From Pseudomonadota bacterium (GTDB lineage Bacteria; Pseudomonadota; Gammaproteobacteria; Steroidobacterales; Steroidobacteraceae): a DNA stretch of 64,000 nucleotides. The notes under the pieces were generated by a model. The model was not told where the DNA came from, ran no database searches, and saw nothing but the letters and a program-made list of their open reading frames with translations. Positions 37,560 to 47,106 of the stretch are shown here, piece by piece. The position numbers were made by a program, and so were the translations under genes. The stretch's first letter is position 1, and every line of letters begins with the position of its first letter. The stretch covers positions 1 to 64,000 of the forward strand of contig JAKBWB010000039.1 in NCBI GenBank assembly GCA_021843755.1, read 5' to 3'.

Positions 37560-38507
37560 ATGCCGGCCCGATGGATCACGGGACTCATACTGGCAGCGCT
37601 CGCGGCCGCCGCGCCGCTGCGGGCTGAGTCCCTTGCCGCCCGGACCGTCATCGCGCGCTGCGCGGCGCACAAGCCCGCGATTCACGGGTTGACGGCCCTG
37701 CGCGCGGCATGCCCCGGCGTCGAGCGGGCGCTGGCCCGGCTGCACGTGCGCGCGCTGCTGCCACATCATTGGCGGCGGACGCTGACCTCCACCGGTCTGG
37801 GCGAGCTGAGCACACTGGCGCGCCGCTACCGGGGCAGACCGCGCTCGGCACTGCCCGACCCGGCAACGCTGCGCAGCACCGCCCTCGGGCTCGCACCGCG
37901 GCGCCCGCCCGCGCCGCCACCGTCGCTTTGGGACCGTCTTTTCAACTGGGTCCACGGCTGGATCGCCCCGCTCGCGACGCTCCTCGAGCGATGGCTTCGA
38001 TCACTGGCGCGCGGACCCCGTGACCGTCAGCTGTTGGTCGAGGCGATCTGGTTCGCCGGTGCGGCGTTGATCGCGACCGCGGTGCTGGCGATCATCCTGC
38101 AACTGCGCGCGGCGGGCCTGCTCGGCTCGAAGTACGTCCGCGGCGCGCGCCGGCCGCGCCGGGCCAGCCCGGCGCCCACGCCCGCCGCGCCGCCGCCCGG
38201 CACACCGGACTGGGCCGCGTTGCGCGACCAGCCCTCCGGGCTGCTGTGCCTGCTGATCGATGCGCTGCTGGGGACGCATCGCCTGGATCGCGCACGGGAC
38301 CTGACCTGCCGCGAACTCATCGCGCGCGCCCGATTCGACAGCGAGGCACAGCGGCGCGGTTTCGCGCAGATCGCGCTGCTGGCGGAACGGGAGCGCTTCG
38401 GCCCCGACACCGCGCTGACGGTCCCGGAATCGATGCTGCTCGACGCTCGGACATTGCACGCGCAGCTCGGCACGCCACCTGGCGATGCCGGCGAGGAAGC
38501 GCGGTGA
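37560..38507 (+). CDS. DUF4129-type protein with signal peptide and one central helix
   Basis: This 315-residue protein begins three bases after the previous stop. It has an N-terminal signal sequence (WITGLILAALAAAAPLRA) and a periplasmic helical part. A membrane helix lies at about 160-185 (LLVEAIWFAGAALIATAVLAIIL), followed by a Pro/Ala linker. The C-terminal cytoplasmic domain LDRARDLTCRELIARARFDSEAQRRGFAQIALLAERERFG is characteristic of DUF4129. Such proteins sit with MoxR and DUF58 genes and resemble the end of transglutaminase-like TgpA proteins, but no transglutaminase domain is present here. Its stop overlaps the next start (GTGA). Confidence 0.75.
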   Translation: MPARWITGLILAALAAAAPLRAESLAARTVIARCAAHKPAIHGLTALRAACPGVERALARLHVRALLPHHWRRTLTSTGLGELSTLARRYRGRPRSALPDPATLRSTALGLAPRRPPAPPPSLWDRLFNWVHGWIAPLATLLERWLRSLARGPRDRQLLVEAIWFAGAALIATAVLAIILQLRAAGLLGSKYVRGARRPRRASPAPTPAAPPPGTPDWAALRDQPSGLLCLLIDALLGTHRLDRARDLTCRELIARARFDSEAQRRGFAQIALLAERERFGPDTALTVPESMLLDARTLHAQLGTPPGDAGEEAR

Positions 38508-39721
38508 AGGAGCGGCTGACGACTCTGGCGCTGGCGGCAGGGGCGCTGTTGCTTTTCTACGCGCTGATTTTCCCGAAACCCCAGGGCCCGCGGATCTCCG
38601 ACGGTCAGCCCCTGTCCACCGATAGACGGCCTTACGGGTACCTGGCGATCTGGCGCTGGCTCGGCGCGGAGCGCATCCCGCGAGTGAGCCTGCGCCGGCG
38701 ATACGCTCGGCTGTCCGGGCTGCTGTCGCGCCCGGACGGTAATGTGCTGCTCGTGACACTGCCGCAACGCATACCCATGCGCCCCGCGGGACTGGCCTAT
38801 CTGAAGCACTGGGTGGCGCAAGGCAACACCGTGTTGATCGCCGCCGCCCTGGACGACACACCGCTGTGGGCCGCGGACATGCGCGAGGGCGCGGAACTCG
38901 ACGACCTCGAGCGGCTCACGGGACTGAGATTCACGCCGCAGGCCATCACGAGCGCGCTGCGCGCGCTCACCGTGCGTCACCCGAAGATCACGCCGAGTAG
39001 TCCCAGTCCTCTGCTGCGCGGAGTCGGTGCGCTGCAGCCGATCAGCGCGCTGCCCTCGCGGCTGTGGCGGGCACATCAGAGCGGCGCGACAACCCCGCTC
39101 GTGCTCGCCGCATTCGCTCGGCGCAAAGTGCCCGCGCTGTGGCTGGTGCCGCTCGGGAGCGGACAAATCATCCTGACGGCCGTCGCCAGTCCATTTTCCA
39201 ATGCGGGTCTGGCCCTGGGCGGCAACGCGCGCTTCCTCGCCAACGTGCTCGCTTGGTCACGCGGCCCGGGCGGCGCCGTGATATTCGACGATGCGCACGC
39301 GGGGCTTGCTGCCGTCTACGACGCCGCGGCGTTCTTCGCCGATCCCCGCCTGCACGCCACGCTCGGCTGCCTGGTACTGTTGTGGCTGGTGTTCGTCCTC
39401 GGATCGCAGCCGCTGCGCGCCGCGCCCTCGCGCTGGCAGCCGCTCGATGAATCCGCCTACATCGAAGGCAGCGCCCGCTACCTCGCGGCCGTCGTGCCCC
39501 CCGCCGACGTCGCTCGGCGACTGATCGAGCAGTTCATCGCGCAGTTGCGCGAGCGCATGCCCCAGGCCGATCCGTGGCGGTGGCTCGCCGCCGAGAGCGG
39601 CGTGGCGGCGCGCGACTACCATGCCCTTGAGCGCTTCCGGGCGCTCGCACACACCGGGGCACACCTGGATTTGATGCAATTACAGACCCTTTTGGCACGG
39701 CTGAGAAAGCAACTGACATGA
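38504..39721 (+). CDS. DUF4350-type membrane protein
   Basis: A GTG at 38504 overlaps the previous stop. The 405-residue product starts with a signal-anchor helix (LTTLALAAGALLLFYALIF). The long extracytoplasmic domain contains SDGQPLSTDRRPYGYLAIWRWLGAERIP, and GNTVLIAAALDDTP and GSGQIILTAVASPFSNAGLALGGNARFLANVLAW follow the DUF4350/GATase-like fold pattern. A second helix is at about 290-310 (LGCLVLLWLVFVLG), then a cytoplasmic helical tail. It is a standard member of MoxR/DUF58/DUF4129 clusters; function is unknown. It overlaps moxR by four bases. Confidence 0.78.
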   Translation: MKERLTTLALAAGALLLFYALIFPKPQGPRISDGQPLSTDRRPYGYLAIWRWLGAERIPRVSLRRRYARLSGLLSRPDGNVLLVTLPQRIPMRPAGLAYLKHWVAQGNTVLIAAALDDTPLWAADMREGAELDDLERLTGLRFTPQAITSALRALTVRHPKITPSSPSPLLRGVGALQPISALPSRLWRAHQSGATTPLVLAAFARRKVPALWLVPLGSGQIILTAVASPFSNAGLALGGNARFLANVLAWSRGPGGAVIFDDAHAGLAAVYDAAAFFADPRLHATLGCLVLLWLVFVLGSQPLRAAPSRWQPLDESAYIEGSARYLAAVVPPADVARRLIEQFIAQLRERMPQADPWRWLAAESGVAARDYHALERFRALAHTGAHLDLMQLQTLLARLRKQLT

Positions 39722-40671
39722 ACCCACTCGAAGAGCTGGATCACGGCATCCAGCAACACCTCGGCGAGACGGTATTCGGGCTGCACGAGCTGATCCACGC
39801 CTTGATCATCGCCGTGGTCGCGCGCGGGCACGCGCTGCTGGAGGGCCCGCCCGGCCTCGGCAAGACACTGCTCGCCAAGAGCCTGGCGGCGGCGCTCGCC
39901 GGACGCTTCACGCGCGTGCAAGGCACGACCGACCTGATGCCGGCCGACATCATCGGCACCCACGTATTCGACGAGGCAAGCCGCAAGTTCACGCTGCACC
40001 CCGGCCCGGTATTCACCGACGTGCTGCTGTTCGACGAGATCAACCGCGCCAGCCCCAAGACGCAATCGGCGCTGCTGCAAGCAATGGAGGAGCGGCAGGT
40101 GTCGCTCGACCGTCAGACCTATCGCCTGCCGCCGGCGTTCCTGGTCATCGCCACCCAGAATCCGCATGAATTCGAAGGAACCTTCCCCCTGCCGGAGTCG
40201 CAGCTCGACCGGTTCATGATGCGCATCGAGGTCGCCTACCCGGCCGGCGAGGACGAGCGGCACGTGCTCGAGCACTACGGCACGATCGCCTCCGTCGAGG
40301 GCCCCGCCGCCGGGGCCGCGATTGGGACAACCCTCGGTCCGGAGGCCATCGCAGCGGCGCGCGCCTGCGCGGATCGGGTGCACGTCTCGAACGAGATCCT
40401 CGAGTACATCCTCGCGCTCGCCCGCGCATCACGCGAGCAGGCGCAGATTGCGCTCGGTCTGTCGACGCGCGGGGCGATTGCCCTGCTGCGCGCGGCGCGT
40501 GTTGCCGCCGGGCTGCGCGGCGGGGAGTTCGTGACGCCCGATGACGTCAAGCGCGTGACACCGTGGGTGGTACCGCACCGCCTGGCCCTGACACCCGAGG
40601 CACTCCTGGAAGCGGTCCACGGACGGGACTTGGCCGCGACGCTCCTGGAGCGAGTCGTGGTGCCGCGCTGA
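39718..40671 (+). CDS. MoxR family AAA+ ATPase
   Basis: This 317-residue AAA+ protein has Walker A EGPPGLGKTLLAKSLAAAL (about 42-50), the MoxR motif GTTDLMPADIIGTHVFDE and Walker B DVLLFDEINRASPKTQSALLQAMEE (about 100). Sensor 1 is VIATQNPHEFEGTFPLPESQLDRFMMRI and sensor 2 lies in LGLSTRGAIALLRAARVAAG. MoxR ATPases act as chaperones that activate or insert cofactors in partner proteins carrying DUF58/VWA domains. The next gene is such a partner. Start and stop overlap or lie close to the neighbours, so expression is coupled. Confidence 0.93.
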   Translation: MNPLEELDHGIQQHLGETVFGLHELIHALIIAVVARGHALLEGPPGLGKTLLAKSLAAALAGRFTRVQGTTDLMPADIIGTHVFDEASRKFTLHPGPVFTDVLLFDEINRASPKTQSALLQAMEERQVSLDRQTYRLPPAFLVIATQNPHEFEGTFPLPESQLDRFMMRIEVAYPAGEDERHVLEHYGTIASVEGPAAGAAIGTTLGPEAIAAARACADRVHVSNEILEYILALARASREQAQIALGLSTRGAIALLRAARVAAGLRGGEFVTPDDVKRVTPWVVPHRLALTPEALLEAVHGRDLAATLLERVVVPR

Positions 40672-40691
40672 GCGCGGCCGCTCGCGCCCCC

Positions 40692-41981
40692 GTGAGCCTG
40701 CGCCGCAACGCGCTGCTGCTGGTCCTGCTGGCCGGGATTCTCGCCATCCTCGGCGAATGGGACAGCGGCTGGGCCCACCTCTGGTGCATCCCCGCCGGAC
40801 TGCTGCTCGCCGGGCTGGCCTATGAGAGCGCTGTCCGGCGGCGGCGCTCCGTGCGGCTGCGTGTCGCCGGTCCCCAGCGCTGGCGCCTCGGCAGCACTCA
40901 ATCCATCGAGTTCGTGTTCACCCAGAACGCCGCGCGGACGATGGAGGCCCAGGTTGCGCTCACCGGCCCCGATTCGTTCGCGCTCGAGCCTCGCGTGGCC
41001 GCTGTGCGCATGGTCCGCGGCCAGGAGAGCCCGCTGGTGCTGCTCGCCCGGCCTCGCCGGCTGGGCCCGTATCACTGGCCTGCGCCGCGCATGCGTGTAT
41101 CCGGGCCTCTGGGGCTCGGCTGGTGGTCCTACCCCCTCTCCATCGACTATTCACCGGTGGTTGTCCCGGACATCCTCACTCGCCCCAAGCGCGCGCCCGG
41201 TGATGCATGGGGCGGCATGGGACTGCCGCAGCGGGCCGGCGGCGGCGCCGAAATCGTGCAGCTGCGACGGTACCGGCACCTCGATCCGCTGCGTATCGTC
41301 GATTGGAAAGCCAGCGCCCGGCGTGGACGACTGATCAGCCGCGAACTGGCCGACGAGCGCCACTTGGAAATCCTGATCGCGGTGGACGCCGGACGCTCCA
41401 GCGGGCTCGCCGCCGGCGAGGTCGACCGGCTCGGCCTGTATGTCAATGTCGCGGCGCGACTGGCGCAGCGGGCCGCCGAACTCGATGATGCCGTTGGGAT
41501 CCTGGTATTCGCCGAGCGGCCGCTGGTGATGGTGCCGCCGGCACGCGGCGTACGGGCGGTGCAACGCATCCGCCGGACGCTGGAAACCTGCAGTGTGCGG
41601 CCGGCGCAATCCAATCCGGCGCTCGCGGCGGCGCGCATCCGCGCCGTGAGCCCGAGGCGCCTATTGGTTGTCCTGCTGACGGATCTGCTCGATGCGTCCA
41701 CGGATGAGCTGCTCGAGGCCGTCGGGCTTCTGCGGCCGAAGCATTTCACCTTCATCGGCGCCGTAGAGAACCCGCAGATCACCGCACTGCCGGCGGCAAC
41801 GGCCGCGGATACGCTGGACCCGTATCGCGCGCTGGCGGCCACCGAGTACCATGACACCCTGGCCGCGAACGTGCGGGCATTGCGCGCGCTCGGGGCAGCC
41901 GCGCTCACCGCCCGGCCCGATCAGCTCGATCGGGCGGTGCTCGGGGCCTATCAGCGCTTCCGCCGGCAGCGGCGGATTTGA
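40692..41981 (+). CDS. DUF58 domain protein, probable MoxR partner
   Basis: A GTG at 40692 gives 429 residues. Two N-terminal helices (ALLLVLLAGILAILGEW and LWCIPAGLLLAGLAY) are followed by a beta-rich region. The DUF58 core is EIVQLRRYRHLDPLRIVDWKASARRGRLISRELADERHLEI (about 190-230). The C-terminal part has a VWA-like fold with a partial metal-site pattern (AVDAGRSSGL, where a canonical MIDAS would read D-x-S-x-S). Proteins of this kind are clients of MoxR. It starts 20 bp after moxR. The replacement of the first MIDAS Ser by Gly suggests that metal binding may be lost. Confidence 0.85.
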   Translation: MSLRRNALLLVLLAGILAILGEWDSGWAHLWCIPAGLLLAGLAYESAVRRRRSVRLRVAGPQRWRLGSTQSIEFVFTQNAARTMEAQVALTGPDSFALEPRVAAVRMVRGQESPLVLLARPRRLGPYHWPAPRMRVSGPLGLGWWSYPLSIDYSPVVVPDILTRPKRAPGDAWGGMGLPQRAGGGAEIVQLRRYRHLDPLRIVDWKASARRGRLISRELADERHLEILIAVDAGRSSGLAAGEVDRLGLYVNVAARLAQRAAELDDAVGILVFAERPLVMVPPARGVRAVQRIRRTLETCSVRPAQSNPALAAARIRAVSPRRLLVVLLTDLLDASTDELLEAVGLLRPKHFTFIGAVENPQITALPAATAADTLDPYRALAATEYHDTLAANVRALRALGAAALTARPDQLDRAVLGAYQRFRRQRRI

Positions 41982-43330: not shown

Positions 43331-43566
43331 ACCGTCCCCGCCAGCCAAATGATTGAGCCCGCGACCCGCCGCCCACCGATGTCCCAATAGCTCACGGGGG
43401 CCATCTCGACACGTTGAATAAGGATATGCGATCGCTGTGTGAACGGGGTAAGATCGGTCAGTGTTTCATATAATTCAAAGGCTTATAGGACTCCCGGCGA
43501 GCCGATGGGCGCCCGGGACCGGCGCCGTCGGGGTACCGATCGGCCAAACCGGCTAAAGTTGTGCTT

Positions 43567-43580
43567 CGATCGGCCGATCG
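43567..43580. promoter_or_regulatory. 14-bp perfect palindrome upstream of the PilZ-fusion gene
   Basis: CGATCGGCCGATCG lies nine bases before the ATG at 43589, and a partial copy CCGATCGGCC lies 30 bp further upstream (43537-43546). This spacing of about three helical turns could be an operator pair, although GATC/GGCC-rich palindromes also arise by chance. Confidence 0.3.
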
Positions 43581-43588
43581 CACCCCGA

Positions 43589-44281
43589 ATGCCGCAAGAA
43601 CGACGCAATCTCTATCGGATCCTCTTCGTGCAGCCTGAAGCGCCACCGGAGATGATCACGGCCGCCTACCGCTGCCTGATGAGCCTGCTGCGAACCCATC
43701 CGGGCTCCGCCGACCCGGAGACGGCCGAACGTATCAAGCAGGCTTACGCGATCCTGCGCGACGCGGAGAAACGCCGCGCCTACGACAGCAGCCGCAGGCG
43801 GCCGCTTTCCGCCCGAGTGCCCGGCGCCGAGCCGGGCAAGCGCCTCGCGGCGGCGCGCGCGCCGCACGTTTGCCCGTTCTGCGGGCTGGCCGCCCCCCGG
43901 CAACCGACTGCCGAGACCCGTTGCACTCGCTGCGCCAGCCCGCTCGCTCCGGTCGCCTACAACCCGGCGGGGACCCAGGAGACCTTCGGACGACGCTCCG
44001 CGCCACGCGTGGAAAAGAATTGTCGCGTCACGGTGCATGTCGCGCCCAGCTCGCCGCCCCTGTCCGGGGTACTGCACGATCTCTCGGCGACCGGCATCAG
44101 CCTCTACACTGCCGTACCGGTGCCCGCCGGCCGCAACATCCGGATCGAAACCCTCGGCATGGACCTGGTCGCCCACGTCCTGCGGGTTCAGCCACGCGAA
44201 CGCACCTACCTGGTGCGCGGGTTCATCCTGACCGCGCTGTACAGCCGCAAGAATCCTGTGCCCGCACCCCAGACCGTTTGA
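43589..44281 (+). CDS. J-like domain / zinc ribbon / PilZ fusion protein
   Basis: From ATG 43589 the product has 230 residues in three parts. Residues 5-65 resemble a DnaJ J-domain (NLYRILFVQPEAPPEMITAAYRCLMSLLRTHPGS, then ERIKQAYAILRDAEKRRAYDS). The essential HPD tripeptide reads HPG, so Hsp70 stimulation is unlikely. Residues 90-120 hold a CPFC...CTRC zinc ribbon. Residues 130-225 look like a PilZ domain (RRSAPRVEKNCRVTVHV, VLHDLSATGISLYTAVPVPAG). The PilZ D/NxSxxG-type motif is present as DLSATGIS, and the RxxxR-type arm is only partial. PilZ domains bind cyclic di-GMP. In-frame GTG 43439 and ATG 43505 are alternative starts. It is a single gene, convergent with the hybrid kinase. Confidence 0.65.
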   Translation: MPQERRNLYRILFVQPEAPPEMITAAYRCLMSLLRTHPGSADPETAERIKQAYAILRDAEKRRAYDSSRRRPLSARVPGAEPGKRLAAARAPHVCPFCGLAAPRQPTAETRCTRCASPLAPVAYNPAGTQETFGRRSAPRVEKNCRVTVHVAPSSPPLSGVLHDLSATGISLYTAVPVPAGRNIRIETLGMDLVAHVLRVQPRERTYLVRGFILTALYSRKNPVPAPQTV

Positions 44282-44295
44282 GCGGCCCGCACCGC

Positions 44296-47106
44296 TCAGC
44301 GCTTCGAGGCGCCGGGCTGCTGGGCCAACGCCTCGCGCAACTCGCGCAGGCGCGGCGGCTTGGAGAGCACCGAGTCCACGCTCGTGGGCACGTCGCCTTC
44401 TTCCACCAGCCGCCGTCCCCACCCCGTCAGCAGCAGCACCAGCGTCTGCGGACACGCGGCCTTCACTGCAGCTGCGACCTGCCGCCCATCGACGTAGGGC
44501 ATGCCCAGATCGGTGATGACCACCTCGTAGGGCTCTCCGGCCGCCTGCGCTGCGCGGAACGCGTCGATCCCGGCCCGGCCGCCGTCAGCGGTCACGACCG
44601 TATGTCCGTCGCCGCTCAGCGCCTCGCGCGTGGAGAACAGAATGCTTGGGTCATCGTCCACGAGCAAAATCCGCCGCGGCGCGACCGCAAGTGGCGGCGG
44701 CACACCGTAGACGACACCACCCTCGAGCGCTACCGGGAAACTCAATGTCACCCGCGTGCCGGCGCCGGGGGTGCTCGCGATCTCGATCTCCCCGCCGTGC
44801 CGCTGCATCGTCCCGAAGACCATGGGCAGCCCGAGCCCCGTGCCCCGCTCGCCTTTGGTGGTGAAAAACGGCTCCAGACATCGGGCACGGGTCGCCTCAT
44901 CCATGCCCACACCGGTATCGCCCACCTCGAGCCGCACCTGTCCGGTCCCGCCGCTCGAGGATCCGGCCGGCCCGATCGATTGTGTGCGCAGCGACAGCCG
45001 TCCGCCCCGGGGCATGGCGTCGGCCGCGTTGAACACGAGGTTGGTGACAGCGTCGCGCAGTTCGGTCTCGACGCCCGGCACCGGCGGCAAGTGCGCCTCG
45101 AGTGCGGTCTCGAGCTCGATCTGCACGCCCTGGCGCTGCGGCATGTCGCTCCAGCGGGCGCGCGTGAGGTCGAGGACCTGTATCACCAGGGCATTCAGAT
45201 TCACGGGCGAAAGCGCCTGGTGCGGCTCGCGCGGCCGGTAGAACTCACGCATGCGCTCCACGGTGTGCGCCACTTGATCGACGGCCCGCTGAATCACCTG
45301 CAGCGGATTCCTGACATCGGCCGGCAGCGTCCGATCCTCCAGCAACATATCCGTGTACAGCATGATCGGTGATATGGCGTTGTTGACGTCGTGAGCGATG
45401 CCGCTCGCCATGGTGCCGAGGGCGAGCAGGCGCTCGTGCTGCAGCACCGCCTGCTGGGTCTGGCGCAGGTCCTCATACGCGCGCTGCAGCGCCTGATACA
45501 GCTGGGCCTGGTAGGCGGCGAGGGCCACGTGCTCGCTCAGCTGGCGCAGAAACTCGCACTCGCCGCTGCTGAAGCTCCCCGGCGCGCGGCGGGCCGCCAG
45601 CAGCACGCCGAACACTCGACTCTCGACGTGCAGCGGCGCCGCCACCAGCGCCCGCAGACCCGCGCGGGCCAGGCGCTGGGCGAAGGGAAATGCGATGGCC
45701 GCCAGCTCCGCCTCGTAGACCAGCTCGCCGCGTACGCAGCGTGAGAGCCCGCTCCGGTCGATGGGAATGGTCGCGCGCTCGGCCATGGCCAGCTCGCGCG
45801 CAAGCGGCGCGCTGTCCCCGCCCACCCGCATGACGGTCAGGCAGTTCTCGCCCGCGTCGTACTCGCTGATCGAGCAGAAATCGAGCCCGAGCTGGGTTTC
45901 CAGCGTACGGATCACCACCTGAAAGATACTGTCGACGTCCTGCCGCTCGCCCATCGCCCGGGTGACGGCATCCAGCAGACTCAACCGCGCAAGCTGCGCT
46001 TCGAGCTTGTCTTGGGCCTCCCGCCGCTCGGTCACGTCGCTCGCCGCACCGAACCACTCGATGATCCGGCCCGCCTCGTCCTCGAGGGGGACGGCGCGCG
46101 AGGCAGCCCAGCCGAGCGTGCCGTCCACCCGATGCACGCGATACTCGAGCTGGAACGTGCTGCGGGTTCGGATCGCGTTCTCAATGGCGGCCGTCATCCG
46201 TTGTTGATCGTCGGGGTGAATGTACGTGTCGAGCCAGGTGCGGCTCGGGTCCGTTTGATCGGCCATGAAGTTGCGGCCCTGGAGGTAGCGCATCTCGCTC
46301 CAGTCGGGGCTCATCTGATAGATGACGTCCGAAGTGGCGTTCACGAGTGCCCGGAAACGCCGCTCGCTCTGCGCCAGCGAATCGTTGACGCGGGCAAGCT
46401 CGGCCGTACGCTGCGCGACCCGGCTCTCGAGCTCGCCGTTCAGCGCCCGCAGCGCCGCCTCGGCCCGCCGTCGGCCGGCGAAATCGCGCCGGATCACCAC
46501 GAGCGCCAGGCCCGCCACCAGAAAGGCCAGCACCCCGCCGCCCGCCAGTGTCTCCTCCGTACTCAGCGTGCGCCGGTGCGTCTGCACCTGCCGTTGTGCG
46601 AAAAGACCGCCCTCGGTGGCGCCCATGCGCTGCAGGATGTCCGCGATCCGATCGACCGTGCCGCGATGGGCACGCGCCCGGACGGCTTGCGCCTGCGCGG
46701 CGGCGAACCCTTCGGTCTGGCGCAGGTCGATCAACCGGGTCAGGCCCGCCAGCCGGGCGTCGATCAGCGGCGCAAGCTGCCGGAGCCGGCGCTGCTCGAG
46801 CGCATTGTCGGTCGTGAGGTGCGTCAGCGCACCGTACGCATGCTCCGCAGCACCGAGGTCGCGCCGGTAGCTGTCGAGGTCGGCGCGATCGGCCGTCAAC
46901 AGGAAATCCCGCTCGCTCGATTCCGCGGCGGTCAGGTCGGCGGCAAGCCGCTGCAGCTGAGTCCGCACCGACACGGAGTGTGCCACCCAGCCGGCATCCC
47001 GGGTCAGCTGCTCGAGACTGACGAACGCCACGACCGCAATCAGTACCACACAGGCCAGCGCGAAGGCGAAGCCTGCCTCGATCTTACGCTCCGCGGACCA
47101 CTCCAC
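44296..47106 (-). CDS. Hybrid histidine kinase: CHASE3-like/PAS/GAF/HisKA/HATPase/receiver
   Basis: The GTG at 47106 behind GGAGG gives 936 residues. The order is: a first membrane helix (FAFALACVVLIAVVAFV), a CHASE3-like periplasmic four-helix region (TAAESSERDFLLTADRADLDSYR), and a second helix near 190-210. A coiled coil and a PAS domain (RFRALVNATSDVIYQMS, YRVHRVDGTLGW) follow, then a GAF domain. HisKA has GIAHDVNNAISPIM (His near 571), and the HATPase has NLVFNAADAMPRGG, VGDTGVGMD and GERGTGLGLPMV. A C-terminal receiver domain has VVITDLGMPYVDG (Asp near 864). GIAHDVNN marks the HPK4 class, as in NtrB-like kinases. No cognate regulator is adjacent; the TonB receptor upstream may be a functional neighbour. 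Confidence 0.9.
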   Translation of the reverse strand: MEWSAERKIEAGFAFALACVVLIAVVAFVSLEQLTRDAGWVAHSVSVRTQLQRLAADLTAAESSERDFLLTADRADLDSYRRDLGAAEHAYGALTHLTTDNALEQRRLRQLAPLIDARLAGLTRLIDLRQTEGFAAAQAQAVRARAHRGTVDRIADILQRMGATEGGLFAQRQVQTHRRTLSTEETLAGGGVLAFLVAGLALVVIRRDFAGRRRAEAALRALNGELESRVAQRTAELARVNDSLAQSERRFRALVNATSDVIYQMSPDWSEMRYLQGRNFMADQTDPSRTWLDTYIHPDDQQRMTAAIENAIRTRSTFQLEYRVHRVDGTLGWAASRAVPLEDEAGRIIEWFGAASDVTERREAQDKLEAQLARLSLLDAVTRAMGERQDVDSIFQVVIRTLETQLGLDFCSISEYDAGENCLTVMRVGGDSAPLARELAMAERATIPIDRSGLSRCVRGELVYEAELAAIAFPFAQRLARAGLRALVAAPLHVESRVFGVLLAARRAPGSFSSGECEFLRQLSEHVALAAYQAQLYQALQRAYEDLRQTQQAVLQHERLLALGTMASGIAHDVNNAISPIMLYTDMLLEDRTLPADVRNPLQVIQRAVDQVAHTVERMREFYRPREPHQALSPVNLNALVIQVLDLTRARWSDMPQRQGVQIELETALEAHLPPVPGVETELRDAVTNLVFNAADAMPRGGRLSLRTQSIGPAGSSSGGTGQVRLEVGDTGVGMDEATRARCLEPFFTTKGERGTGLGLPMVFGTMQRHGGEIEIASTPGAGTRVTLSFPVALEGGVVYGVPPPLAVAPRRILLVDDDPSILFSTREALSGDGHTVVTADGGRAGIDAFRAAQAAGEPYEVVITDLGMPYVDGRQVAAAVKAACPQTLVLLLTGWGRRLVEEGDVPTSVDSVLSKPPRLRELREALAQQPGASKR

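Follow-up and report, generated by a model that had tools for sequence, protein, structure and literature searches.

A J domain, C4 ribbon and PilZ protein behind a FliA promoter-like site: a candidate flagellar c-di-GMP effector

The window, that is, the whole stretch of 64,000 nucleotides that was analysed, contains at 43589..44281 on the forward strand a gene for a protein of 230 aa, in which a J domain, a C4 zinc-ribbon-like segment and a PilZ domain follow one another. The J domain occupied residues 6-70 (43604..43798, +), and within it the Pfam DnaJ profile matched residues 7-66 with an E-value of 1.5e-9 (38.3 bits, cut-off 27.8). The ribbon-like segment (43871..43933, +) consisted of two CxxC pairs, C95 and C98, C112 and C115, and all four cysteines were present in 58 of 58 aligned relatives. 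Among the curated ribbon families of Pfam it gave a weak L37ae-type match (E 0.005, below the cut-off). The PilZ domain covered residues 133-220 (43985..44248, +). The orthologues share the start codon of the window gene, the ATG at 43589. The conserved frame starts there and the promoter keeps a fixed distance to it, so two other candidate starts, a GTG at 43439 and an in-frame ATG at 43505, were rejected. The neighbours are an SDR oxidoreductase gene on the opposite strand and a convergent hybrid histidine kinase gene (44296-47106, -) with CHASE3, PAS, GAF, HisKA, HATPase and receiver domains, and the gene does not lie in a flagellar operon. This neighbourhood (SDR gene, histidine kinase) was kept within the genus only, and no neighbourhood conserved across families was found; one family keeps a MATE-like transporter upstream, as read by eye.

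Structural modelling agreed with the profile searches. In the AlphaFold model of the window protein, which was built from 52 sequences (mean pLDDT 76, pTM 0.54), the J domain formed four helices and the PilZ domain a barrel, and the linkers at residues 71-90 and 124-137 were of low confidence. In fold comparison the J part matched solved J domains with a Z-score of 11.6 (2och), and the PilZ part, residues 135-218, matched the c-di-GMP-bound VCA0042 (2rde) with a Z-score of 8.1. The PilZ fold that a sequence-only reading of this DNA had placed at residues 130-225 was recovered by the Pfam PilZ profile (PF07238; residues 135-208, E 2.8e-7, 31.2 bits, cut-off 22.5). The architecture of J domain, C4 ribbon and PilZ domain in one small protein, proposed by that same reading, was thus confirmed by profile search, cysteine conservation and fold comparison. 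No Pfam match to the YcgR-type N-domain was found in the window protein, and the J domain and ribbon stand in that position.

Both c-di-GMP motifs of PilZ domains were present. The RxxxR motif, RSAPR, lies at R136-R140 (43994..44008, +), and both arginines were invariant in alignment A2 of 52 sequences. The DxSxxG motif, DLSATG, lies at D164-G169 (44078..44095, +); S166 and G169 were invariant in the same 52 sequences, and the first position was Asp in 56 and Asn in 2 of the 58 aligned relatives. The PilZ profile score varied among the relatives, with L119 above the cut-off and L076 and L029 below it, and L057 had no PilZ match in Pfam at E 0.01. The own genome contained 18 GGDEF domains. It has three PilZ proteins, and as the two besides the window protein lie in short frames of 160 and 123 aa, none of YcgR size was seen in this genome. 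The conserved motifs and the GGDEF domains are in line with the earlier suggestion that the protein is a likely c-di-GMP effector.

At residues 37-39 (43697..43705, +) the window protein has HPG at the HPD position. The loss of the HPD aspartate had been taken to argue against Hsp70 activation, and conservation of HPG in orthologues had been proposed as a check. The substitution is real but belongs to the window's own subclade; 49 of the 58 relatives have HPD, the others having HPG (4), DPD (3), HPK (1) and SAT (1). HPG had one origin on the tree, with support of 97/98, and was limited to that subclade; the HPD-motif labels needed four changes in all (HPG, DPD, HPK and SAT), so the motif was altered at least four times. 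The tree makes HPG a recent change in one branch, and since HPD persists in most members, its loss tells little about the ancestral function of the family. A normal HPD is found in the remaining J proteins of the own genome.

The length of helix II argues in the same direction as HPG. The distance from the helix II Tyr to HPD was 10 residues in 77 of 77 scorable members (4 members were left unscored) against 8 in 16 ordinary J proteins, and the profile alignment to DnaJ had the same two-residue gap. As read from these alignments, the helix longer by two residues is a feature of essentially the whole family that shifts the HPD register and displaces the HPD loop, and it is a better argument against ordinary Hsp70 activation than HPG. 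Pairwise dN/dS in twelve congener pairs was 0.04-0.30 for the J domain and 0.05-0.29 for the PilZ domain. Since the two ranges are similar, the J domain is under selection, the HPG clade included.

Upstream of the gene lies a FliA (sigma-28) promoter-like site, which, together with the flagellar association described below, had been missed by the sequence-only reading. The -35 element, TAAAGTTG, is located at 43554..43561 (+) and the -10 element, GCCGATCG, 11 nt past it at 43573..43580 (+), 8 nt before the ATG, giving the layout TAAAGTTG-N11-GCCGATCG. The TAAAGT and CCGAT blocks were common to 18 congeneric orthologues, with a mean column conservation of 0.85 against 0.52 for the 11-nt spacer, and the distance of 8 nt from the -10 box to the ATG was constant in the 18 congeners. 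E. coli FliA sites include TAAAGTTT-N11-GCCGATAA, and sites of this type precede tar, flgMN, flgKL and ycgR (PMC4183435). The window site fits the FliA consensus, and as a promoter it is a consensus prediction. With 8 nt between the -10 box and the ATG, transcription from this site would give an mRNA with little or no leader. No sigma-70 promoter or terminator was found in a scan of 43380-44400. In the window lineage a perfect 14-nt palindrome, CGATCGGCCGATCG (43567-43580), overlaps the -10 box and spacer. A second conserved upstream block, TATGCGATC-like, lies at 43420-43435 between the window gene and the opposite-strand SDR gene; its T, A, T, C and A do not vary among the 18 congeners.

The pattern TAAAGTT-N12-GCCGAT had two perfect matches in the 3.3 Mb of the own genome, against 0.013 expected by composition. 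One precedes the window gene and the other lies between flgA and flgM, upstream of flgM, where the ORFs were named FlgA, FlgM and FlgN by Pfam. Across 96 kb of the contig around the flagellar cluster, the best sites, scoring at least 12/16, stood in front of flgM, of two genes that by eye resemble HDOD and flgK genes, and of a fourth ORF. At L154 (G000:C45:112564) a sigma-28-like site of 14/16 stands before a gene whose start resembles an HDOD protein, with chemotaxis-like genes adjoining, the identity again by eye. Of 57 relatives outside the genus, 13 had an upstream sigma-28 site scoring above the rest of the locus, against 1 of 17 J-protein controls; the comparison of promoter percentiles between relatives and controls (Mann-Whitney p 0.06) is suggestive only. 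Sigma-28-like sites also preceded relatives in several other families, and in family f15 of the order the gene was mostly without a recognisable one.

The protein family was found in 65 of 296 genomes of the order (profile search, E 1e-12) and, at E 1e-30 or better, in 16 of 369 genomes of the class sample. In the phylum sample 3 of 398 genomes matched, the own genome among them, and the other two were J-domain-length matches. At 1e-10 the class-wide profile search returned mostly ordinary J proteins, and PHROGs gave J-domain-type matches only, function unknown. In raw counts, with relatedness ignored, 58 of the 65 carriers in the order had FliM, as did 85 of its 231 non-carriers; in the class sample 15 of 16 carriers and 175 of 353 non-carriers had it. 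The own genome has FliA (8.6e-74) and one Flagellin_N match. The seven carriers without a FliM match belonged mostly to f15, and the f15 genomes suggest that the role is decoupled from flagella there. L051, L055, L063 and L064 of f15 kept the gene with no FliM match and no recognisable sigma-28 site.

Several known systems resemble parts of this protein. YcgR of E. coli and FlgZ of Pseudomonas, like the window protein, have a C-terminal PilZ domain with the c-di-GMP motif; ycgR is FliA-dependent in E. coli (PMC4183435), and FlgZ is a FliA-dependent flagellar PilZ protein (PMC3913639). Those two are FliA-dependent flagellar genes, whereas for the window gene a FliA promoter-like site is predicted. 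They carry the YcgR N-domain where the window protein has the J domain and C4 ribbon, and the window gene, unlike theirs, lies outside flagellar operons. PilZ proteins with DnaK or DnaJ domains are already known in Myxococcus. CsdK1 and CsdK2 of M. xanthus, like the window protein, couple PilZ to a component of the Hsp70 system (PMC10313047), but that component is DnaK itself and the PilZ domain is N-terminal, while the window protein has its J domain N-terminal and its PilZ domain C-terminal. Four M. xanthus PilZ proteins in all, likened here by description, combine PilZ with a DnaK or DnaJ domain; no FliA link was reported for them, and among 24 single PilZ deletions in that organism only those of plpA, pixA and pixB caused motility defects (PMC8316039). 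With the J domains of canonical DnaJ and CbpA the window J domain has the fold (Z up to 11.6) and the profile match in common, but its helix II is two residues longer, its post-HPD loop is shorter, and the protein has no G/F or DnaJ_C region. In the literature searched, which lay mostly outside subscription journals, no paper described such a J-PilZ protein.

The window gene is probably a class-3 flagellar c-di-GMP effector that acts in the manner of YcgR and FlgZ, with the J domain and ribbon replacing the YcgR N-domain; membership of the YcgR family is not claimed. The computed basis comprised the domain architecture, the conservation of the motifs, the promoter-like element, the co-occurrence with FliM, and FliA, FlgM and many GGDEF proteins. 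It is the FliA promoter-like site, together with the association with flagella, that makes a flagellar role likely. As a late (class 3) flagellar gene, it would be transcribed by FliA when genes of the flgM and flgK type switch on, and the PilZ domain would bind c-di-GMP through RSAPR and DLSATG. The c-di-GMP-bound protein may then alter flagellar output, as YcgR does in enterobacteria and FlgZ in Pseudomonas; here we infer both the flagellar target and whether output rises or falls. Standing where YcgR has its N-domain, the J domain and C4 ribbon would serve as the partner-binding part, and in the HPG lineage the J domain would most likely be a docking scaffold and not a DnaK activator.

The main rival to the flagellar-effector reading is a DnaK-recruiting role, in which the protein would be a c-di-GMP-gated co-chaperone comparable to CsdK1 and CsdK2 of Myxococcus, the J domain recruiting DnaK to flagellar or other clients, the PilZ domain acting as the switch and the ribbon binding the client. 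The HPD kept in 49 of 58 relatives and the purifying selection on the J domain speak for such a role, as do the M. xanthus PilZ-DnaK fusion that stabilises a client protein (PMC10313047) and the four PilZ proteins with DnaK or DnaJ domains in that organism (PMC8316039). However, HPD was lost or changed four times while the remaining protein stayed conserved, helix II is two residues longer in every member measured, and the window protein itself has HPG, so we regard a co-chaperone as rather unlikely. The protein might instead be co-regulated with flagella and act elsewhere, for example on surface polysaccharide or on a gene regulator, setting c-di-GMP output in the motile phase. The absence of flagellar neighbours, the seven genomes, mostly of one family, that keep the gene without a FliM match, and the non-flagellar genes also served by E. 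coli FliA (PMC4183435) would fit this, but the strong FliM co-occurrence and the precedent of YcgR and FlgZ make it improbable. A chance sigma-28 site in front of an ordinary PilZ protein of unrelated function, c-di-GMP-binding or not, would agree with a promoter known as a consensus prediction and with the several relatives that have no such site. Two boxes conserved over an unconserved spacer, the fixed distance to the ATG and the genome's only other perfect match at flgM all stand against coincidence, which is very hard to credit.

If the flagellar-effector reading is true, the protein would represent a new architecture, in gammaproteobacteria, among the PilZ proteins through which c-di-GMP acts on motility, and in the own genome it would stand where no YcgR-sized PilZ protein was seen. 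It would also allow a test of how a J domain can lose its HPD repeatedly while the protein is kept, and would be a direct candidate for connecting c-di-GMP and the flagellum with the chaperone system. A broader version, quite possible although short of probable, is a FliA-controlled family of c-di-GMP effectors in which the YcgR N-domain is replaced by a C4 ribbon and a J domain whose register is changed by the two extra residues of helix II. Such a family would connect the level of the second messenger with flagellar output and with the DnaK system, or else the repurposed J domain would be a motor-binding module.

Additional J-like sequence was observed in some relatives. L028, L029, L030 and L127-L130 have a second J-like stretch ahead of the ribbon, and the second J domain of L028 and L029 is without HPD. 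A plasmid origin was considered and gave no match. Upstream in the window, at 38246-41981 (+), lie ORFs that by eye resemble a DUF4350, MoxR ATPase and DUF58 set.
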